A DNA stretch of 64,000 nucleotides from Nitrospinia bacterium (GTDB lineage: Bacteria > Nitrospinota > Nitrospinia > Nitrospinales > JAJDAT01), in assembly GCA_029261715.1 (NCBI GenBank), contig JAJDAT010000049.1:124001-188000 (forward strand). The letters run 5' to 3'. Each line of letters opens with the position of its first letter. Position 1 is the stretch's first letter. Of the stretch, positions 2,205 to 12,902 are shown piece by piece. The notes beneath the pieces are model-generated. The model saw nothing but the letters and a program-made list of their open reading frames with translations. It did not search any database and had not been told where the DNA came from. A program made the translations under genes and the position numbers.

Positions 2205-4685
2205 ATGTTAGATAAAGAAAACCAATCAAGCCAGGTTCCTGCGGCGTTTTTTGAGAAGGGACTTCTCAAAACTTCTGCGCGTAAAGCTTCTAGTCTATCT
2301 CGAAGAGGGATGAACTTTATCGCTGAGAAGAATATTTCCGGGTTAGGAGAGGTTCGTTATCGCGCTGAAGATGGAGAGACGGTTCCCGTTAGTTACCGTA
2401 AAATTTCTTTATGGTATCGAGAGGCCAAAGAAGGCGAAGCTTTATCTCAATACAATTTGGGCGTTATGTATTTTAAAGGCGTTGGAGTGGAACGTGATTT
2501 TGCAACGGCTGCAAGCTGGTTTCGTAAAGCGGCAGATCAAGGTTTGGCAAACGCTCAGGGTTTTCTTGGCATTATGTTTGAAAAAGGAATGGGTGTTGCC
2601 GAAAATTTTGAAGAAAGCGTAAATTGGTATAAAAAAGCGTCAGAACAAGGAGATAAAGTCGCCCAGTTTAATTTTGCGCGTATGTTATATGAGGGAAAAG
2701 GGACACAAAGAGCTCCCGAACAAGCGTTGGAATTATTCAGAGAGTCTGCTAAGAGCGGAAATTTGGCGGCTCAGAACTTGTTGGGGATGATGTATGAAAA
2801 TGGAGATGGCGTAGAAAGAAATTTTAAAGACGCTATTAAATGGTATCGCAAAGCCGCTAAAGAAGGTTATGTAGAAGCCCAGTTCAATATGGGCGATATG
2901 TTTGAACAAGGCAAAGGAATAAAAAGAAATTTAAAGAAAGCCGCTGAATGGTATGGATTGGCGGCCGAAAAAGGATATGAAGACGCTCAATATAAGATGG
3001 GCGTTATTCGCTATGCGGGACATGGGGTAAGGAAAGATCCAAGAGAAGCTCTCCGTTGGTTTTGCAAAGCCGCTGAAAACGGACATGACAGAGCGCAAGA
3101 GTTTTTAGGTAATTTTGACGGAAGTGAAAAATCTGGCCCGGAAGACTTTTTCCAAAAGGCTAACTATTTTTTTAATTCCGAGGACTATGAAGAAGCTGCC
3201 CAGTGGTATCGCTTAGCTGCCGAGAAGGGACATGCATTATCTCAAACGCGATTGGGACTTATGAGCGATTTTTGCATAGGAATCGAAGAACCTGATCCAG
3301 TTGAAGCCGCTGATTGGTACCGTCAAGCTACTGAAAGCGGGAGTTCTGACGGACAATATTTTTTAGGCCTTTTACTATTTTTAGGAGATGGGGTTGAGCA
3401 AGATTTTCAAGCTGCATATGATCAATTTTACCAGGCGGCGGAAAAAGGAGTTTCAGACGCTCGTGTTTTCTTAGGATTATTGTTAGAAAGAGGAAAAGGG
3501 GTTGGAAGAAACCTATCTCAGGCCGCTGAAAACTTTAAGATGGCAGCGGAGCAGGGAAACGAATTTGCTCAATATCATTTAGCGAGAGCTTTTTATCACG
3601 GAAAAGGAACAAAAAGGGATTTTGAAGCCGCTTTCCGATGGTATCGAAAATCTGCTGAAAGCGGGAATGATGTTGCCCAATACAACTTAGGAAGAATGTA
3701 TTTTAGCGGTAGAGGAGTAGAGCGGAATTATTTGAAGGCGTCTGAATGGTTTAAAAAAGCCGCCGAAAATGGTCATGATTACGCTCAATACACGCTTGGA
3801 AAAATGTATTGCTCTGGAGAAGGAATGGAGCAGAATTATAGAGAAGGAATTTATTGGATCGGAAAAGCGGCAGAACTAGATAATTCCCAAGCCATGAATC
3901 ATTTAGGCGTTATTTATGAAAAAGGGCAGGGAACTCCAATCGATTATGCTATGGCAGTTGAATGGTATACGAAAGCCGCTGAAAAAGGTTATCCAGCAGC
4001 TCAAAATAACTTAGGCATGATGTATTTTGTCGGTAAGGGGGTGGAGAAGGACTATGAAGAAGCCGCAAAATGGTATCGGCAAGCAGACCGCTCCCAAAAA
4101 GGCGAAGAAGATAATCCTGTCGAGCAATTATTTGGAAAAAATCGAAAAATTTCTGGCGATCCTAGTGAGTGGTTTCGAAAAGCCGCAAAAACTCCTCTTG
4201 CGCAGAACTTTGTTGGCAAGTTGTATGAAAGTGGATCAAGGGTTCCTCAGAACTATTTAGAAAGTGTTTACTGGTATCGTAAGGCTGCCCAAAGAGGGCA
4301 CGATGAGGCTCAATTTAATTTAGGCTGCATGTATTTCCATGGTAAAGGGACCTCAAAAGATGTTGATCAAGCTTTAGAATGGTTTTATAAATCCGCTGAC
4401 CAGGGGAATGTCAAATCGCAAAAAATGCTGGGCGAAATTTTTGAAACGGGAGAATCTATTCCTCAAGATTTTTCTAAGTCTTTTGACTGGTATCAAAAAG
4501 CTGCGGTTCGCGGTGATAAACACGCTCAGTTTCAGTTAGGCCATATGTACTTTTATGGAAAGGGAGTAGATAGAAATCCATCTTTAGCTAGTATGTGGCT
4601 TCGAAGATCCTCCGAGCAATCTGAATTACTGGCTATTGGCGCTTTAAGAAAAATGAGTCAGGCCCCCAAACCCAAAAGAAAGTAG
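2205..4685 (+). CDS. Sel1-like repeat protein, about 20 repeats
   Basis: An 826-residue protein made almost wholly of 36-residue Sel1 (SEL1-like TPR) repeats from about residue 65 to the end. Each carries the pattern WYRKAAEQG..AQ..LG.MY..GKGV. I count about 20 units, with degenerate ones near 295-350 and 625-680. Such alpha/alpha solenoids are protein-interaction scaffolds. There is no signal peptide or membrane segment, so it looks cytoplasmic, and the N-terminal 60 residues are unrelated basic sequence. It follows the J-domain gene by 6 bases and probably shares its transcript. I cannot assign a specific partner or pathway. The repeats are diverged rather than identical, so recent slippage is unlikely. 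Confidence 0.9.
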   Translation: MLDKENQSSQVPAAFFEKGLLKTSARKASSLSRRGMNFIAEKNISGLGEVRYRAEDGETVPVSYRKISLWYREAKEGEALSQYNLGVMYFKGVGVERDFATAASWFRKAADQGLANAQGFLGIMFEKGMGVAENFEESVNWYKKASEQGDKVAQFNFARMLYEGKGTQRAPEQALELFRESAKSGNLAAQNLLGMMYENGDGVERNFKDAIKWYRKAAKEGYVEAQFNMGDMFEQGKGIKRNLKKAAEWYGLAAEKGYEDAQYKMGVIRYAGHGVRKDPREALRWFCKAAENGHDRAQEFLGNFDGSEKSGPEDFFQKANYFFNSEDYEEAAQWYRLAAEKGHALSQTRLGLMSDFCIGIEEPDPVEAADWYRQATESGSSDGQYFLGLLLFLGDGVEQDFQAAYDQFYQAAEKGVSDARVFLGLLLERGKGVGRNLSQAAENFKMAAEQGNEFAQYHLARAFYHGKGTKRDFEAAFRWYRKSAESGNDVAQYNLGRMYFSGRGVERNYLKASEWFKKAAENGHDYAQYTLGKMYCSGEGMEQNYREGIYWIGKAAELDNSQAMNHLGVIYEKGQGTPIDYAMAVEWYTKAAEKGYPAAQNNLGMMYFVGKGVEKDYEEAAKWYRQADRSQKGEEDNPVEQLFGKNRKISGDPSEWFRKAAKTPLAQNFVGKLYESGSRVPQNYLESVYWYRKAAQRGHDEAQFNLGCMYFHGKGTSKDVDQALEWFYKSADQGNVKSQKMLGEIFETGESIPQDFSKSFDWYQKAAVRGDKHAQFQLGHMYFYGKGVDRNPSLASMWLRRSSEQSELLAIGALRKMSQAPKPKRK

Positions 4686-5918: not shown

Positions 5919-7640
5919 CTAGGGTTCTAAATGAATCCCAAATCCGGCAAAAAATAAACGCCAATAATCCCACACTGTTCCGCGCGCGCAGGTATAAAAA
6001 AAGACATGCGTTAATGAGTAGTATTGTAAAGTGACGTACATCGCTATGAGATCAAGAGGAAACTTTCGATCCCACGTCCATGGTTTTCTGGTTTTATCTT
6101 TTTTTATGAGCTGCCAAACTGCGCTTACCCAAATTCCGATTCCTAGAGTGACAAAATGAGGCCAGGTTTTTAGTAAGCCTATGGCAAATCTCCATTCTAA
6201 GCCCCTCCCTATCCACCGACGAATGATATTACCCCAAAAAAGATTACCGAAACCGGCGGAAGCCATGATCGCGGCAAAAAGCCTTAGATATAGGTTTTTC
6301 TTAAAAAATCTGAAGAAAACAGGGTAGTAGAAACAGCGTATTAAAAAGTCTCTGTAATGTAGAGTAATACGACCCCATAAGTTGGCGAGGTTGGTTGTTA
6401 ACCAAGGCCTATTCATATTAGGTTCGATGTCGTACCCGCAAATTTTCCAAATGCCTACTTTGAAATGAAGAACTCCTGCCATAAGCATGAACCACTTTAT
6501 CTGGTCGAACAGGCAACTAAACCAAATAGTGAGTACCGAGGCTTGGCCTCCATCAACAAAGTGGCAACCAAGCTCGCGTAATCTCCAAAAAACAGGAACT
6601 CCCATTTCGTGGCGGACAAAATAAACCAAATTGTATTTAATCCAATCCCCTATGGCTAAATAAAAAATAGACCATCCAAGCAGTTTAATTCCGTCTAAGA
6701 CAAGTTGATTTTTGTCTTTATTATAGAATCGATCGGTTGTATACGAATACCCTTGGCCAATTGAGGAGCCCCATGACCAATTGGCAATTTGACCAGGATT
6801 GAAGAATATAGAAAGGTATCCAAGCAATGAAAGATCTTTTGGAATTCTTCCATTTTTGAAATCCATGTGATAGATAAACAAACGCCGCCAGTGGAAAAAA
6901 AATAATAAAATCCCTAAAGGCAGTTTCCATTGGTTTCCTCCTAGACCTTCAATACTAGAGCCTAAAAGAGTTATTATTCCTGCGGATTGGATCGCTATGG
7001 TTCCGGCAATTTGGCTAAATTTTTCTTTATCTAATAAATAGCGAAGGATGAACCAATAGCAAAAGAAGGACACATACCCAAAAACAACAGAATTAAAAAA
7101 TACCGCAGATGTTGGGGAGCTTGGGTCCGAGCAAGTAAGATAAATAAGGCTACCGGGTAACCAGGCCAAAAACTTTCTGTTTACATTGATAGGGTGAAGA
7201 ATTAGATAAACTACTATGTGAGAACCGAGAAGACCTGCAATGGGTCGAAATCCATAGAGGATAACGACGATAGCCAAAAAAGAAAAAGTTAAGGCCGTGC
7301 GTTTAAATTTGAAAGGTAAATAATAAGCTAAAAGAAAGGCTACCGCAGACCCAAGGAACAAAATCAATCTTTCTTGATCGTTACTGAATTCGCTTGTGTC
7401 GGTAATATAGATTTCGCAGTCGACGTTGTCGTCATTGTCGAAAACGTGTTGTAGATTAAAACCTAAACTATTTGCGAAACTCTTAGGACTTGCAATACCA
7501 AGTGGTTGGTAAACTTCAGTGAATAAATAAATGAAAATCCCAAGAACTGCCAAAGTCGCCAAAACAAAACCATGGCGGTGTTGATTATTTTTTTGTCGTT
7601 CTTCGTCGGAAATGGGTTTTTGAAGTCCGAGACCTAACAT
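5919..7640 (-). CDS. MBOAT-like (DltB/AlgI-type) polytopic membrane protein, probable acyltransferase
   Basis: A 573-residue polytopic protein with about ten hydrophobic segments. The region 410-445, NRPWLTTNLANLWGRITLHY followed by RDFLIR, matches the MBOAT block usually written N-x-RP-xL...FWxRWH...W.RDY that precedes the active site. In DltB and AlgI a GLWHG motif with the catalytic His follows; the equivalent here appears to be GFGNLF (463-468), with Asn466 where His is expected. His545 in SLTHVF is the only other candidate in the C-terminal part. It is the last gene of the NRPS/carrier cluster, 73 bases after the carrier gene, which suggests transfer of a carrier-bound acyl or aminoacyl group to an exported acceptor. 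The family call is fairly secure; activity is uncertain given the His change. Confidence 0.65.
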   Translation of the reverse strand: MLGLGLQKPISDEERQKNNQHRHGFVLATLAVLGIFIYLFTEVYQPLGIASPKSFANSLGFNLQHVFDNDDNVDCEIYITDTSEFSNDQERLILFLGSAVAFLLAYYLPFKFKRTALTFSFLAIVVILYGFRPIAGLLGSHIVVYLILHPINVNRKFLAWLPGSLIYLTCSDPSSPTSAVFFNSVVFGYVSFFCYWFILRYLLDKEKFSQIAGTIAIQSAGIITLLGSSIEGLGGNQWKLPLGILLFFFHWRRLFIYHMDFKNGRIPKDLSLLGYLSIFFNPGQIANWSWGSSIGQGYSYTTDRFYNKDKNQLVLDGIKLLGWSIFYLAIGDWIKYNLVYFVRHEMGVPVFWRLRELGCHFVDGGQASVLTIWFSCLFDQIKWFMLMAGVLHFKVGIWKICGYDIEPNMNRPWLTTNLANLWGRITLHYRDFLIRCFYYPVFFRFFKKNLYLRLFAAIMASAGFGNLFWGNIIRRWIGRGLEWRFAIGLLKTWPHFVTLGIGIWVSAVWQLIKKDKTRKPWTWDRKFPLDLIAMYVTLQYYSLTHVFFYTCARGTVWDYWRLFFAGFGIHLEP

Positions 7641-7713
7641 GGGATTAGTTTACAATATTACTTAAGTGGGGGGAACGTGGTTAGCTAGAAATGTTTTGGG
7701 TGGTTTGGAAAGT

Positions 7714-7959
7714 TTATAACTTTGAAAATATAAAATCGGATAAGCTATTTAGATCTCGAAACGTTTCTACTCCTATATCAGCTTCAGTAATATCTATCCC
7801 AAAATGACTTTCCATAAATGCTACCGTTGAGACAACGCGTAAAGAATCCGTTATAAAATTTGAAAGTAAATCGGTAGATGGTTCTAAGTTTAGTCCAGGA
7901 TTGGGAAATTCAGTTTCAAAATAGTTTTTAAGTTCTGCCTTTATTTGTTGTTTTTCCAT
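7714..7959 (-). CDS. free-standing acyl/peptidyl carrier protein
   Basis: An 81-residue acidic four-helix carrier protein. The phosphopantetheine attachment Ser39 is in FITDSLRVV, with the usual Asp-Ser-Leu, and hydrophobic helix 3 is near VETFRDLNSLSDFIF. It begins two bases after the PLP-enzyme stop (TAG-CT-ATG), so it is translationally coupled to it. It lies in the same cluster as an adenylation protein that lacks its own thiolation domain. The simplest reading is that it is the in-trans carrier loaded by that protein and unloaded by the MBOAT-like protein, analogous to DltC between DltA and DltB (inference). It could instead be a dedicated fatty-acyl carrier. Confidence 0.85.
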   Translation of the reverse strand: MEKQQIKAELKNYFETEFPNPGLNLEPSTDLLSNFITDSLRVVSTVAFMESHFGIDITEADIGVETFRDLNSLSDFIFSKL

Positions 7960-7961
7960 AG

Positions 7962-9086
7962 CTAGGATTCTAATAACTTAAACGCATTCGTTAAATCGTT
8001 TTTGAGATCGTCTGGATTTTCTAACCCAAAGCATAATCGAACCAAATTTTCCCCCAAACCAATTTGCTCTTTTTCTTCGCATGTCATTGAGGCGTGGCTG
8101 CCTGAATAAGGTTGGGCGACCATAGAGGTGACACATGCCATACCAGTTCCTGTATTGAATAATTTAAGGGATTGAATAAATTTCTGATAATGTTTTTCCA
8201 GATTATCTGAAAATTCAAAAAATATTATTCCTCCGTACCCAGTCAATTGTTTTCCGTCCACGTTTGGATAATAAACTTTCGCCACTTGCGATTGTTTTCT
8301 TAAAAAGTCACGCATCTCAATCGTTACCTGTTGTTGTTTTTCTAAACGAAGGTTCAGCGTTTGTAGACTGCGACGTGTTAACCAAGCGCTATGAGGAGCA
8401 AGAATTGCGCCGCCATAAAATCGGATGTCGCGAAATTCTTGGGCTAAATCTTCTCGATTGGTCAAAGTCATTCCGCTCATTACATCGCTATGACCGGAAA
8501 AGTATTTGGTTCCGCTGTGTAAAGAAACGTCAGCTCCATGTTTTAGCGGATGTTGAAATAAAGGCGTTGCCCATGTGTTATCAACGACCACAAGACCTTT
8601 GGGATTTAGTGATTTTAGACGTTCAGATACTTTTTCAATATCGACAGTTTTTAAAAAAGGGTTTGTCGGCGTTTCAAAAAATACCATGCAAGTTTTAGCG
8701 GAAATTTGTTCAAGGTCCTTTTCACAGGAAAAGTCGGCAGTTTTTAATTGGATACCTAGACGTTCGCTTATTCTTTGAAAAAGTCTGTATGAACAACCGT
8801 AAATATAGGGATCGACTACAAGAGTATCGCCTGGTTTGAGAAGTTCTAGGGTCATGCTAATAGCCGACATACCGCAAGCGGAAGCGATGGCGAAGTTTGC
8901 TTCTTCGAGAATGCGGACGGTCTCTTCGAGTTCCGATACGTTAGGGTTGTTTTTTCTAGTGTAAAAAAAAGGAGAGTCTGCTTCAAAAGCGCTGCATTGA
9001 TAGATAGGAGTAACGGCAGGATTTGCGTTTTCAGTTTCTATCCTAGCGTGAAGAGCCTTTGTAACGGGGTTTAAAGGTTTTTCCAT
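7962..9086 (-). CDS. PLP-dependent Cys/Met metabolism family enzyme (cystathionine gamma-synthase / gamma-lyase fold)
   Basis: A 374-residue fold-type I PLP enzyme. Lys194 in HSGTKYFSGHSD should form the internal aldimine. Tyr42 and Arg44 in FYTRKNNPN correspond to the phosphate-binding YxR contributed by the neighbouring subunit, and Asp169 in VVVDNTWATP would pair with the pyridine nitrogen. Family members catalyse beta/gamma elimination or gamma replacement on Cys, Met, cystathionine or O-acyl-homoserine. The length fits the family. It overlaps no neighbour but lies 3 bases after the radical SAM gene and 2 before the carrier gene, so it probably supplies or edits the amino acid used by the cluster. 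A stand-alone methionine-pathway role is the alternative. Confidence 0.85.
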   Translation of the reverse strand: MEKPLNPVTKALHARIETENANPAVTPIYQCSAFEADSPFFYTRKNNPNVSELEETVRILEEANFAIASACGMSAISMTLELLKPGDTLVVDPYIYGCSYRLFQRISERLGIQLKTADFSCEKDLEQISAKTCMVFFETPTNPFLKTVDIEKVSERLKSLNPKGLVVVDNTWATPLFQHPLKHGADVSLHSGTKYFSGHSDVMSGMTLTNREDLAQEFRDIRFYGGAILAPHSAWLTRRSLQTLNLRLEKQQQVTIEMRDFLRKQSQVAKVYYPNVDGKQLTGYGGIIFFEFSDNLEKHYQKFIQSLKLFNTGTGMACVTSMVAQPYSGSHASMTCEEKEQIGLGENLVRLCFGLENPDDLKNDLTNAFKLLES

Positions 9087-9089
9087 TTT

Positions 9090-10547
9090 TTAAGAAAGGG
9101 CTTTGGCTAGTTTACTTTTCATCCGATCTGGAAACTGTTTACCTTCAAATTTTGGAAGCGCTACTCGGTCGTCTTCAGCGATTCCTTCCGCAATTGGAAC
9201 GGTAGGAAAATGAGCGCGGTCAAATACTTCATATAAGTTTGATTCAATTGAAGGAGCCCAGGCAATCTCTAACCCAATTTCAGATGGTTGAGATTTTGTT
9301 AAAATAAATCGATAACTTTCTTGTGCCTCTAAAGTAACCGTTTTCCAGTTAGGTTGACCATTGCTTTGCGGTCGATAAAAAATTGTTGCAGGTGTATCGC
9401 CTGTATTTTTTGCTTGAACATGGACTGAAATAATATCGCCGCGCCAATTGTAAGAAGAGGTTTTCAACCCGTCTGGCGTTAATGTATTAATAGTATCTGG
9501 TTTTGATGGTAGTTTATTGCCTAGATTAAAATGAGAGTTTTCTCCACAAGCGTTACATCGCCCTTCGGAATCTAAGGCTTTAATTTTGGCGTCAAGGCCA
9601 AATCGTTTCACTAAGGGCTCCTGGCAGTTCCCACAAAATGAACTAGCGTCATTTTCGTCTGGAACGTTCCCGAGATAAACGTATTTTAGACCCTCTTTTT
9701 GTGCCACTGCTCGCGCTTTTTGTAATCGGTCAATTGGAGTGCGAATGGTGTTTTGCATTCTATATTCGGGATGGAACCTAACAAGGTGCAATGGAACCTC
9801 TGGACCCAAATCCTTTAAAATCCATTTTGCTATGCGAAGTGCAGATTCTTCATTATCGCTAATGTCGGTAATCATGAGGTTACTAATTTCAAGATGCTTT
9901 CCTGCATCATAAATCTGTTTTGCCGCTTCTAGAACAGGTTGAAGCCAACCTGTTGTTAATTTGCGATAGTAGGTTTCATCCATCGACTTTAAAGACAATG
10001 AGAATATGTCTATATGCGGGAGCAATTCGTGTAAAGCTTCTTTTGTGATGAAACAAGCAGATTTATAAAGGTTGGTTAATCCTGCCTTGCGAGCCAATTT
10101 AGCTGTTTCAATAACAAATTCATGCCAGACAACTGGATCGTTATAGGTCCATGAGAGCGTTCCAATATTATGTCGTAAAGCCATGTCTACAATCCCTTGC
10201 GGAGTCATTTCGTGCACGTCTTTATTTTCGACAAACTTATACTGTGATGTTTTCCAGTTCTGACAATAATGACAATTTAAATTACAACCGATATTGCCCA
10301 AAGAAAGGATGCGAGAGCCAGGAGCGTAGTGAAATATGGCTTCTGTTTCAATAACTTCTTCTGTTATATGTACGCCTTTTCCAAAGGTATAAGTTACTAA
10401 CCGACCGTCTCGATTGCCTCGAACGCCGCAAAAACCAACTTCTCCCTCTTTTATTCTACATTTGCGGGGTGATAAGTGGCATCTTACAGAGCCGTCTTCG
10501 AGTTTTTCTTCTAAATTGGCAAGACGATAATCGTTTTTCCAGTCCAT
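9090..10547 (-). CDS. amrS: AmmeMemoRadiSam-type radical SAM protein with C-terminal extension
   Basis: A 485-residue radical SAM enzyme. The cluster-binding motif is CNLNCHYC with Cys88, Cys92 and Cys95. The N-terminal Cys23, Cys30 and Cys40 and the text around GFCGVRGNRDG are typical of the AmrS group. Cys305, Cys308, Cys331 and Cys334 form two CxxC knuckles, probably a zinc or rubredoxin-like site. After about residue 345 there is an extra region of about 135 residues, beta-rich by eye, that I do not recognise. The usual partners AmrA and AmrB are not in the window. The gene sits between the adenylation gene (93 bases) and the PLP gene (3 bases), so a role in this cluster is plausible but inferred. 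Confidence 0.85.
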   Translation of the reverse strand: MDWKNDYRLANLEEKLEDGSVRCHLSPRKCRIKEGEVGFCGVRGNRDGRLVTYTFGKGVHITEEVIETEAIFHYAPGSRILSLGNIGCNLNCHYCQNWKTSQYKFVENKDVHEMTPQGIVDMALRHNIGTLSWTYNDPVVWHEFVIETAKLARKAGLTNLYKSACFITKEALHELLPHIDIFSLSLKSMDETYYRKLTTGWLQPVLEAAKQIYDAGKHLEISNLMITDISDNEESALRIAKWILKDLGPEVPLHLVRFHPEYRMQNTIRTPIDRLQKARAVAQKEGLKYVYLGNVPDENDASSFCGNCQEPLVKRFGLDAKIKALDSEGRCNACGENSHFNLGNKLPSKPDTINTLTPDGLKTSSYNWRGDIISVHVQAKNTGDTPATIFYRPQSNGQPNWKTVTLEAQESYRFILTKSQPSEIGLEIAWAPSIESNLYEVFDRAHFPTVPIAEGIAEDDRVALPKFEGKQFPDRMKSKLAKALS

Positions 10548-10640
10548 CGAGTTCTTATTTTTTCTAAAAATTTATTGGTTTAAAAAGACGCTTTTATTAG
10601 GCTTTTATTAAAGGATTTAGTGTAACAGTTTTTTTTTGTT

Positions 10641-12902
10641 TTACCGATTCAAAAAGTCTTTTAACCATGTAGGATCCCGTTTTTCAATATTTTTCGAGAG
10701 TTGGATTTTAGTCGGCTCTGGAAGGGCATCGCGATCAATTTTACCATTCGGCGATAATGGAAAATCATCCAATTTCACAAACGTTTGTGGAATCATGAAT
10801 TCTGGAAGTTTTTTTTCGAGAGCTTTTTGCAATTGAACTTCCGAAAGATGAGTTTCATTGGTGGTCGGGATAAAATACGCGGTCAAAATTTTATTTTGTT
10901 TAGAGTCGTTTCTTAAAATCGCTACAGCTCTGGCAATAGTTGGTAGAGCGTTCATTGTGGATTCGATTTCTCCCAGTTCGACGCGAAATCCACGTATTTT
11001 GATTTGATTATCTGCGCGACCCAAAAACTCAATTTCTCCGTTGGGAAGATATCTAGCTAAATCTCCAGTTTTATAAAGTTGAGCTTCAGGGCTATCGCTG
11101 AAGGGGTCATTTATAAACTTTTCTTGAGTTAATTTATGTCGATTGAGGTAGCCGTTGGCGATGCAAACTCCTCCTAAATGCATTTCTCCAGGAATCCCAA
11201 TTGGAACTGGTAGGAGTTCTTTATCAAGAATGAAAACTCGGACGTTATCCAAAGGACGGCCAATGGTGGGACCTAGCTGGCGGAAATTTTTTGACTCATT
11301 TGTTAAGCAGGCGGTTACAGTGACATGGCCTTCGGCGGGGCCATAACCATTGAAAAAATTTTGCCCTTTCGACCAGCGTTCAACATTCTCATTTGTGCAT
11401 CTCTCGCCAACAGCCACGATAGTTTCCAAAGAAGAAAAACCGGGATTGGGGAGTATTGATAACAAAGAAGGAGGTAACATTGCTAAAGTTATTTTTTTTT
11501 CATTAATTATTTTAGGCAATTCTAAAATAGAGAATAAACTTTTTTTGCCGCTGAAAACTAAAGCTCCTCCTGATAGCAAAGCCGTGAAAATCTCCCAAAC
11601 GGCAACGTCAAAACCAAAAGATGAAAATTGTAAGATTTTGCTTTCAGGATGGACTTTGAAAAGTTTATTAGATGAGTTGATTAAATTACAAAGGCCATCG
11701 TGGCGTAATAATATCCCTTTGGGTTGGCCAGTAGAACCTGAAGTGAAAATAACATAAGCTAGATCTTGGGGAACTCCAACGGTGTTAAGGTTCGTTTCAG
11801 GATGTTGGGAGAGTTTTTTGTTGAGTTGGTCCAAGCAAATTGTTGTTTCCGCTTGAAAGGGGAGTTTTTCTAAAAGTTCTTTTTGAGTTAAAAGGATTGG
11901 AGAATTGGTTTCTTTGAAAATATATTCAAGGCGGTCGCTTGGATAACTTGGGTCCATTGGAACAAATGCTCCGCCAGCTTTTAAGATAGCTAAAATACCA
12001 ATGACCATGTCGAAAGATTTTTCAACACAAATGCCCACTAATTTATTAGGACCGATTCCTTTTGCTTTTAAATACCCAGCCAATTGATTTGCCTGGATGT
12101 TTAAATTTTTATAAGTTAGCTCTTTATTTTCCCAACTTGCCGCTATAGCATCTGGTCTTTTTTCTACTATGGACTCGAATATTTGATGAACGCAAAGATT
12201 ATTTGAAAATTCGGATTGAGTTTGATTCCATCGGATTGTCAGTTGGTCAAATTCTCCAGGAGTCAATAGTGGTAATTGCGATATGCTTTTTTCCGGAGTT
12301 TTAATCCCAGCTTTTAAAAGCTCTACAAAATGTAGCGCCATGCGTTCAAGAGCTTTGGAGTCCCATAAATCGACGTTACATTGACCGAACCCTTCAATAT
12401 TTCCGTTTGTTTCAGAAAAATTAAAATTCAAATAGAGATTAGATATGGATTCTAATGATCTAGTTAAATTTGGCGAATTGGCAGTTTGGTTTTCAGTTTT
12501 TTTATTTTCAGAAAAGTTGAAAAAGACTTTGTAATAAGCTGAACTCGTAGTTTCTATTTTTGGTTGTAAACTTTCTAATAAAGTTTCTAATGGATCGCTT
12601 AATTCTGTTTTTGAATCTAAAATATTTGAAGAATTCTGCTGGATAGAATTTTCAAAGGAGATTGAAGAAAACGTGTCGCCTTTTATCCATTTAATAGAGT
12701 CCAAACTTCGGTTTTTTTTATTTTGTGAAATCTGGTTACTTAAAGATCCTATAAAAATTATTTTTTGGTCTGAGTAGCGGTGAAGCAGGATTTGTAACGT
12801 TCCGAGTAATAAATCCGAAATATCTATCCCTCGTGTAGTGCAAAAGCCGAGGCAATCGTTTTGTAACGATTTTGGTAATTTGATAAGTTGGTTTGATATC
12901 AT
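10641..12902 (-). CDS. NRPS protein: partial condensation domain plus complete adenylation domain, no carrier domain
   Basis: A 753-residue protein. Residues 236-730 are a complete adenylation domain: A3 FTSGSTGQPKG (386-396), A4 around FDVAVWEIF (431-439), an A5 variant NGYGPAEGH (518-526), TGDLAR (612-617), A8 GRADNQIKIRGFR (628-640) and A10 Lys721 in NGKIDR. Residues 1-215 resemble only the C-terminal lobe of a condensation domain and its linker to the A domain; no HHxxxDG motif exists, so it should not condense. There is no thiolation domain, so the separate carrier at 7714-7959 is the likely partner. Pocket residues by eye are Asp432, Val433, Trp436, Met475, Val496, Val498, Gly519, Val527, Thr528 and Lys721; I cannot assign a substrate. 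First gene of a five-gene minus-strand cluster. Confidence 0.9.
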   Translation of the reverse strand: MISNQLIKLPKSLQNDCLGFCTTRGIDISDLLLGTLQILLHRYSDQKIIFIGSLSNQISQNKKNRSLDSIKWIKGDTFSSISFENSIQQNSSNILDSKTELSDPLETLLESLQPKIETTSSAYYKVFFNFSENKKTENQTANSPNLTRSLESISNLYLNFNFSETNGNIEGFGQCNVDLWDSKALERMALHFVELLKAGIKTPEKSISQLPLLTPGEFDQLTIRWNQTQSEFSNNLCVHQIFESIVEKRPDAIAASWENKELTYKNLNIQANQLAGYLKAKGIGPNKLVGICVEKSFDMVIGILAILKAGGAFVPMDPSYPSDRLEYIFKETNSPILLTQKELLEKLPFQAETTICLDQLNKKLSQHPETNLNTVGVPQDLAYVIFTSGSTGQPKGILLRHDGLCNLINSSNKLFKVHPESKILQFSSFGFDVAVWEIFTALLSGGALVFSGKKSLFSILELPKIINEKKITLAMLPPSLLSILPNPGFSSLETIVAVGERCTNENVERWSKGQNFFNGYGPAEGHVTVTACLTNESKNFRQLGPTIGRPLDNVRVFILDKELLPVPIGIPGEMHLGGVCIANGYLNRHKLTQEKFINDPFSDSPEAQLYKTGDLARYLPNGEIEFLGRADNQIKIRGFRVELGEIESTMNALPTIARAVAILRNDSKQNKILTAYFIPTTNETHLSEVQLQKALEKKLPEFMIPQTFVKLDDFPLSPNGKIDRDALPEPTKIQLSKNIEKRDPTWLKDFLNR

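Follow-up and report, generated by a model that had tools for sequence, protein, structure and literature searches.

A candidate Dlt-like aminoacyl-transfer operon with radical SAM and PLP enzymes and a membrane protein of predicted MBOAT fold in a Nitrospinia bacterium

The window analysed here is a stretch of 64,000 nucleotides from a Nitrospinia bacterium (assembly GCA_029261715.1, contig JAJDAT010000049.1, positions 124,001 to 188,000). It contains five consecutive genes on the minus strand, which encode an adenylation (A) protein (10641..12902), an AmrS-type radical S-adenosylmethionine (SAM) enzyme (9090..10547), a Cys/Met-family pyridoxal phosphate (PLP) enzyme (7962..9086), a free carrier (7714..7959), and a membrane protein with the predicted fold of membrane-bound O-acyltransferases (MBOAT; 5919..7640). 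An earlier prediction, made from the DNA letters and their open reading frames, had proposed that these genes act together in a manner parallel to DltA-DltC-DltB, and the list of open reading frames places all five where it had put them. From the A gene to the MBOAT gene the intergenic gaps measure 93, 3, 2, and 73 bases; the gaps of 2 to 3 bases proposed for the middle of the operon are those between the radical SAM and PLP genes (3) and between the PLP and carrier genes (2). A promoter and terminator scan gave nothing above chance, with no terminator-like site between the five genes, and an Rfam search of the window returned no match. We lean slightly towards the view that this operon encodes a carrier-dependent aminoacyl-transfer system, Dlt-like in its working and built around a different MBOAT family.

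The A protein (753 amino acids, aa) is of the nonribosomal peptide synthetase (NRPS) type. It matches AMP-binding over residues 242-586 (248 bits) and AMP-binding_C over residues 645-721 in Pfam, and lies above the cut-off of TIGR01733 in NCBIfam (430.6 against 317.4 bits). It fails the tests for DltA-type ligases (TIGR01734, 261.7 bits against 559.85; NF003417, 279.7 against 476). The original prediction described a protein without a carrier domain; Pfam indeed finds none, and adds that residues 6-221 (12240..12887, minus strand) are the C-terminal lobe of a condensation domain. This domain is incomplete (PF00668, profile positions 229-455 of 456, E 9.7e-11), and the half expected to carry the HHxxxDG motif is missing. 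Aligned to GrsA, the protein reads as the code DVWMVVGVTK and has both Asp235 and Lys517. Asp235 is a feature of A domains for alpha-amino acids.

The radical SAM enzyme (485 aa) and the PLP enzyme (374 aa) belong to the families first proposed for them, and both have features of their own. The former scores 301.6 bits against a cut-off of 220 in the AmrS family of AmmeMemoRadiSam proteins (TIGR04337), and its iron-sulphur motif CxxxCxxC (C88, C92, C95; 10263..10286, minus strand) is invariant in an alignment of eight orthologues. It differs from AmrS in its operon context and in a conserved, all-beta C-terminal extension of about 148 aa (9090..9536, minus strand), which lies past the 349-position AmrS model, contains the motif EVFDRAHFPT, and is kept in all eight orthologues. 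The extension is modelled with low confidence (62.8) as a beta-sandwich and has no significant fold match in the PDB; resemblances to carbohydrate-binding modules were weak (E above 0.01) and were not used. A separate, ordinary AmrS is encoded in the same genome. No AMMECR1 or MEMO partner was found among the neighbouring proteins scanned, to which this search was confined. We know of no established reaction for the AmrS family. The PLP enzyme matches PF01053 (Cys_Met_Meta_PP, 339 bits, E 2.3e-101). Its nearest solved relatives are methionine gamma-lyases (best PDB matches 1e5e and 7bqw), with which it shares a Tyr-Gly-Cys motif (residues 96-98), and the PDB alignments predict Lys194 as the PLP-binding lysine. 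Unlike those lyases, it lies far under the NCBIfam equivalog cut-offs (best 269 bits against 594) and forms its own clade, tied to the radical SAM enzyme. The carrier (81 aa) matches PF00550 (PP-binding) at 22.6 bits against a cut-off of 20.8 and has, as predicted, Ser39 in the sequence ITDSLR (codon 7843-7845, minus strand). The DS motif is kept among relatives, and the nearest solved chains are peptidyl carriers.

The membrane protein (573 aa) had been called MBOAT-like, and this identity holds by fold and by a chain of profiles, and fails by direct sequence matching. No match was found in Pfam, NCBIfam, or the PDB sequences, even with an alignment of 11 sequences; PF03062 misses the protein and ten relatives even at E 10, and finds six other MBOATs in the same genome. 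The single sequence likewise found no matches in the genome contigs, where an alignment-based profile scan succeeded. The AlphaFold model, built from a 23-sequence alignment, is confident (pLDDT 85.3, pTM 0.87). Foldseek against the PDB places DltB first (6bug, E 9.6e-6, TM 0.64 on the target), followed by HHAT, PORCN, LPCAT3, and ACAT2; ranks 1 to 14 are all MBOATs (probability 0.84-1.00). Profile comparison links the family (probability 99.1) to proteins of about 840 aa from Saprospiraceae and others, which terminate in an SGNH/GDSL domain (Pfam) and are in turn linked to AlgI-type MBOATs (96.6). We preferred this chain to the direct comparison with AlgI-type MBOATs, which gave a probability of 44 and misaligned the catalytic region. 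By its predicted structure, the protein is thus an MBOAT of a family without a Pfam or NCBIfam model. The long fusions occur in L058-L063 and L065, in tandem in L060; in L065, from Paraglaciecola, a carrier and an A protein are encoded nearby.

The window copy of this MBOAT has lost a residue that its relatives keep. A conserved His is a hallmark of MBOATs (PMC10213974), and in the profile chain position 471 falls on the His of the WHG motif of AlgI. This position is His in 23 of the 23 other members covering the site and Asn in the window (AAT codon, 6228..6230, minus strand). The nearby changes E474R, M476W, and F477I make a single read error an unlikely cause. The activity of the window MBOAT, and with it the last step of the window system, is therefore doubtful on this comparison. 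The copy might be decaying or repurposed, its MBOAT being no acyltransferase (e.g., serving the carrier as a scaffold or channel), with transfer left to an intact three-gene paralogue in the same genome (A, carrier, and MBOAT; L019 9869-13376, G000:C5), whose MBOAT retains the His. We regard this as somewhat unlikely, because the open reading frame is full-length and its predicted fold confident, its product retains 57 of the 66 columns whose conservation is at least 95%, and the other four genes have no comparable active-site loss. It would concern the window copy and is compatible with aminoacyl transfer as the function of the family. At the first usual catalytic position of MBOATs, which is His or Asn in the motif FWRRWH/WRRxN, all members carry Thr, Ala, or Ser, so even the family as a whole may use an altered chemistry.

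The gene set is conserved far beyond what chance would give, and it also stays together in marine and magnetotactic-type bacteria other than the window's. Among 77 genomes of the phylum, a PLP orthologue (E<1e-100) is present in six, each time inside the operon. The order A, radical SAM, PLP, carrier, MBOAT is identical in the window, G049, G051, and G052, and in G041 and G046 it is the same as far as the contigs extend, their ends being cut off. Outside the phylum, a sample of 399 genomes from another phylum yielded 3 with a radical SAM orthologue including the C-terminal part. In the Magnetococcales genome G088, the A, radical SAM, and PLP genes lie on one contig and the carrier and MBOAT genes at the start of another; G097, related to Magnetococcales, has all five, with carrier-MBOAT divergent from the other three; and in G237, whose genome encodes no MBOAT of the window family, the radical SAM-PLP pair has an aminotransferase and a LysE exporter as neighbours. 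One could argue from these rearrangements that the first three and the last two genes are two separate units, neighbours without a shared function: their orientation differs in G097, radical SAM-PLP stands alone in G237, and the G046 and G051 carriers are just about 46% identical when their A, radical SAM, and PLP proteins are 89-95% identical. This seems very improbable to us, since the units occur together in every Nitrospinota genome having them and in the rearranged G097, and since an A protein without a carrier domain requires a carrier. The two findings named beforehand as damaging to the proposal point the other way: the five genes are not dispersed in relatives and stand together in other genomes, and MBOAT and carrier are not parts of separate units, the carrier adjoining an MBOAT of the window family in almost all complete loci, which come from several phyla. 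In G097, a phosphatidylserine-decarboxylase gene lies about 10 bases behind the PLP gene (L111 10740-11507); we considered it as a hint of a phospholipid acceptor and did not use it, because it was seen once.

Relatives of the window MBOAT adjoin a carrier and an activating enzyme in several phyla, and the activating enzyme is of three kinds. Type I consists of a DltA-like A protein of 500 aa, a carrier, and an MBOAT, beside which lie genes for a 230-aa membrane protein and a divergent sulfatase-superfamily protein. This type is found in Nitrospinota, in one Gammaproteobacterium (L035), and in the window's own genome, where the L019 paralogue adjoins both accompanying genes. Type II is the window arrangement. 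Type III has an acyl-ligase-like activating enzyme with carrier and MBOAT. The codes, aligned to GrsA, follow this division: DNLFLALVDK is invariant in all of type I; the remaining Nitrospinota type II proteins read DVWLIVGVTK; those of G088 and G097, read by eye, fit DVW[LM][IV]VGVTK; and type III has SGQFEGHRAK or nearly so, without Asp235. Since the code is invariant within a type and different between types, each type is predicted to load one defined group. Type I probably feeds another amino acid, and type III probably a group other than an alpha-amino acid. Hosts of the carrier-linked MBOAT family include Nitrospinota, Gammaproteobacteria, Magnetococcales, Verrucomicrobiota, Myxococcota, Neomarinimicrobiota, and Acidobacteriota. 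Several genes recur or stand out around these sets. The sulfatase-family proteins of L022 (12882-14348) and other type I loci lack the C/S-x-P-x-R motif except for one chance-like match, and no sulfatase role was assigned to them. A relative of the 230-aa membrane protein is encoded near the PLP gene of G097 (L111). PEP-mutase-family genes, of phosphonate chemistry, lie near type III sets (L043 12946-13836; L047 7409-8149) in Opitutales and Neomarinimicrobiota. Membrane spermine-synthase-like proteins are encoded upstream in several loci, and a TauD dioxygenase downstream in L042 (L041 4255-5796; L021 1090-2595; L042 11758-12711).

The phylogeny of the MBOATs does not follow the type of activating enzyme. 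In the maximum-likelihood tree, the window MBOAT clusters with the type I MBOATs of Nitrospinota (8 rows, 99/98), and the remaining type II MBOATs are placed elsewhere. A single origin of type II MBOATs was rejected (p-AU 0.00041), and so was a tree holding the type I MBOATs together (1e-6). Because type II MBOATs are not one clade, the activating module appears from these phylogenies to have been joined to carrier-MBOAT pairs repeatedly, the two parts having recombined. The picture is of one MBOAT family, probably supplied by carriers, whose activating modules can be exchanged, with the MBOAT-carrier pair as the output part that is used again and again. The polyphyly of type II MBOATs, together with the occurrence of radical SAM-PLP alone, indicates that these two enzymes probably make or tailor an amino acid. 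The proposal that they are inserted modifying enzymes fits with G237, where the pair stands without adjoining A, carrier, or MBOAT genes and where the context would suit enzymes that produce a free amino acid.

The same context can be read in favour of a small natural-product pathway, yielding a diffusible product (a modified amino acid or a lipoamino acid) that the MBOAT would release or acylate on a small-molecule or free-lipid acceptor. The aminotransferase and LysE exporter of G237 would suit such a pathway, as would an A protein that resembles a reduced NRPS module retaining half of a condensation domain, and the patchy distribution (6/77 genomes). We consider it unlikely: no transporter, thioesterase, or regulator is found among the operon genes, and one carrier-MBOAT output serving three unrelated activators in several phyla suits structural modification better than it suits a single metabolite. 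'Export' as such, part of the first description of the operon, is not supported.

Comparison with known systems clarifies what is shared and what is new. AlgI/PatA-type MBOATs act with SGNH partners, a pair used for envelope O-acylation, and distant relatives of the window MBOAT are the SGNH/GDSL fusions described above; the window MBOAT differs in being missed by PF03062, in having no SGNH domain, and in having a carrier alongside. The Dlt system (DltA-DltC-DltB-DltD), which D-alanylates teichoic acids, shares with the operon a free A protein, a free carrier, and a membrane protein to which DltB is the best fold match, and DltB is described as taking its acyl group from a carrier protein, unlike other MBOATs of known structure (PMC10213974). 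The parallel first drawn with it gains from DltB being nearest in fold to the membrane protein among solved structures and from the existence of minimal A-carrier-MBOAT sets without radical SAM and PLP enzymes, one of them in the same genome. Yet the window A protein is of NRPS type and under the DltA cut-off, its MBOAT comes from another sequence family, the operon has no DltD, the radical SAM and PLP enzymes are additional, and the hosts, judging from the named relatives, are Gram-negative lineages. AlmEFG, which glycylates lipid A in Vibrio, follows the same Gram-negative logic of amino-acid activation, carrier, and membrane transferase (PMC3783018), but AlmG is of lysophospholipid-acyltransferase type, in place of an MBOAT fold, and radical SAM and PLP enzymes are lacking. 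By its gene content, the operon follows a Dlt-like logic without orthology to DltA or DltB and without DltD. We describe it as a carrier-linked MBOAT system whose MBOAT family is distinct and whose supply comes from a radical SAM-PLP pair; the literature on MBOATs with adenylation, carrier, or radical SAM proteins returned Dlt work and unrelated papers, and since its coverage was partial, the lack of a description of the five-gene set is weak evidence of novelty.

The aminoacyl-transfer process that we favour could involve three steps. First, the radical SAM and PLP enzymes would jointly make or tailor an alpha-amino acid. Second, the A protein would adenylate it and load it onto the phosphopantetheine of carrier Ser39, as the A code and the carrier suggest, the pairing of these two proteins being proposed from their linkage. 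Third, the carrier would give up its aminoacyl group at the membrane to the DltB-fold MBOAT, which would attach it to a lipid or an envelope glycan through a hydroxyl or comparable group. In other lineages, the same output would be fed by the type I or type III activating enzymes. In the window, the third step may be weak, altered, or performed by the intact three-gene paralogue. Several observations weigh against this process: the replacement of His471 and the possibly altered chemistry of the whole family; the weak homology of the carrier to its Pfam model; the lack of a DltD reading frame among the five genes or their neighbours (open reading frame list and Pfam) and of an SGNH partner within the operon; and a type II code for which we know of no matching specificity.

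A wider proposal, which we advance tentatively as one possibility, is that these loci represent a second widespread carrier-fed MBOAT family, distant in sequence from DltB, whose single carrier-MBOAT output and at least three activating enzymes would produce varied decorations of Gram-negative envelopes, the window group being a non-proteinogenic amino acid made by the radical SAM and gamma-lyase-like PLP enzymes. If true, a separate family of this kind would extend aminoacyl or acyl envelope decoration to a large number of Gram-negative lineages, among them nitrite oxidisers that play an important part in the ocean. The non-proteinogenic amino acid would, if confirmed, give an AmrS-like protein a defined role, and the AmrS family would gain a pathway open to testing, in which its partner enzyme is defined and loading can be assayed. 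Elsewhere in the window, positions 2205-4685 encode a protein of 826 aa made, as read by eye, of Sel1-like repeats, beside a possible DnaJ-like gene.

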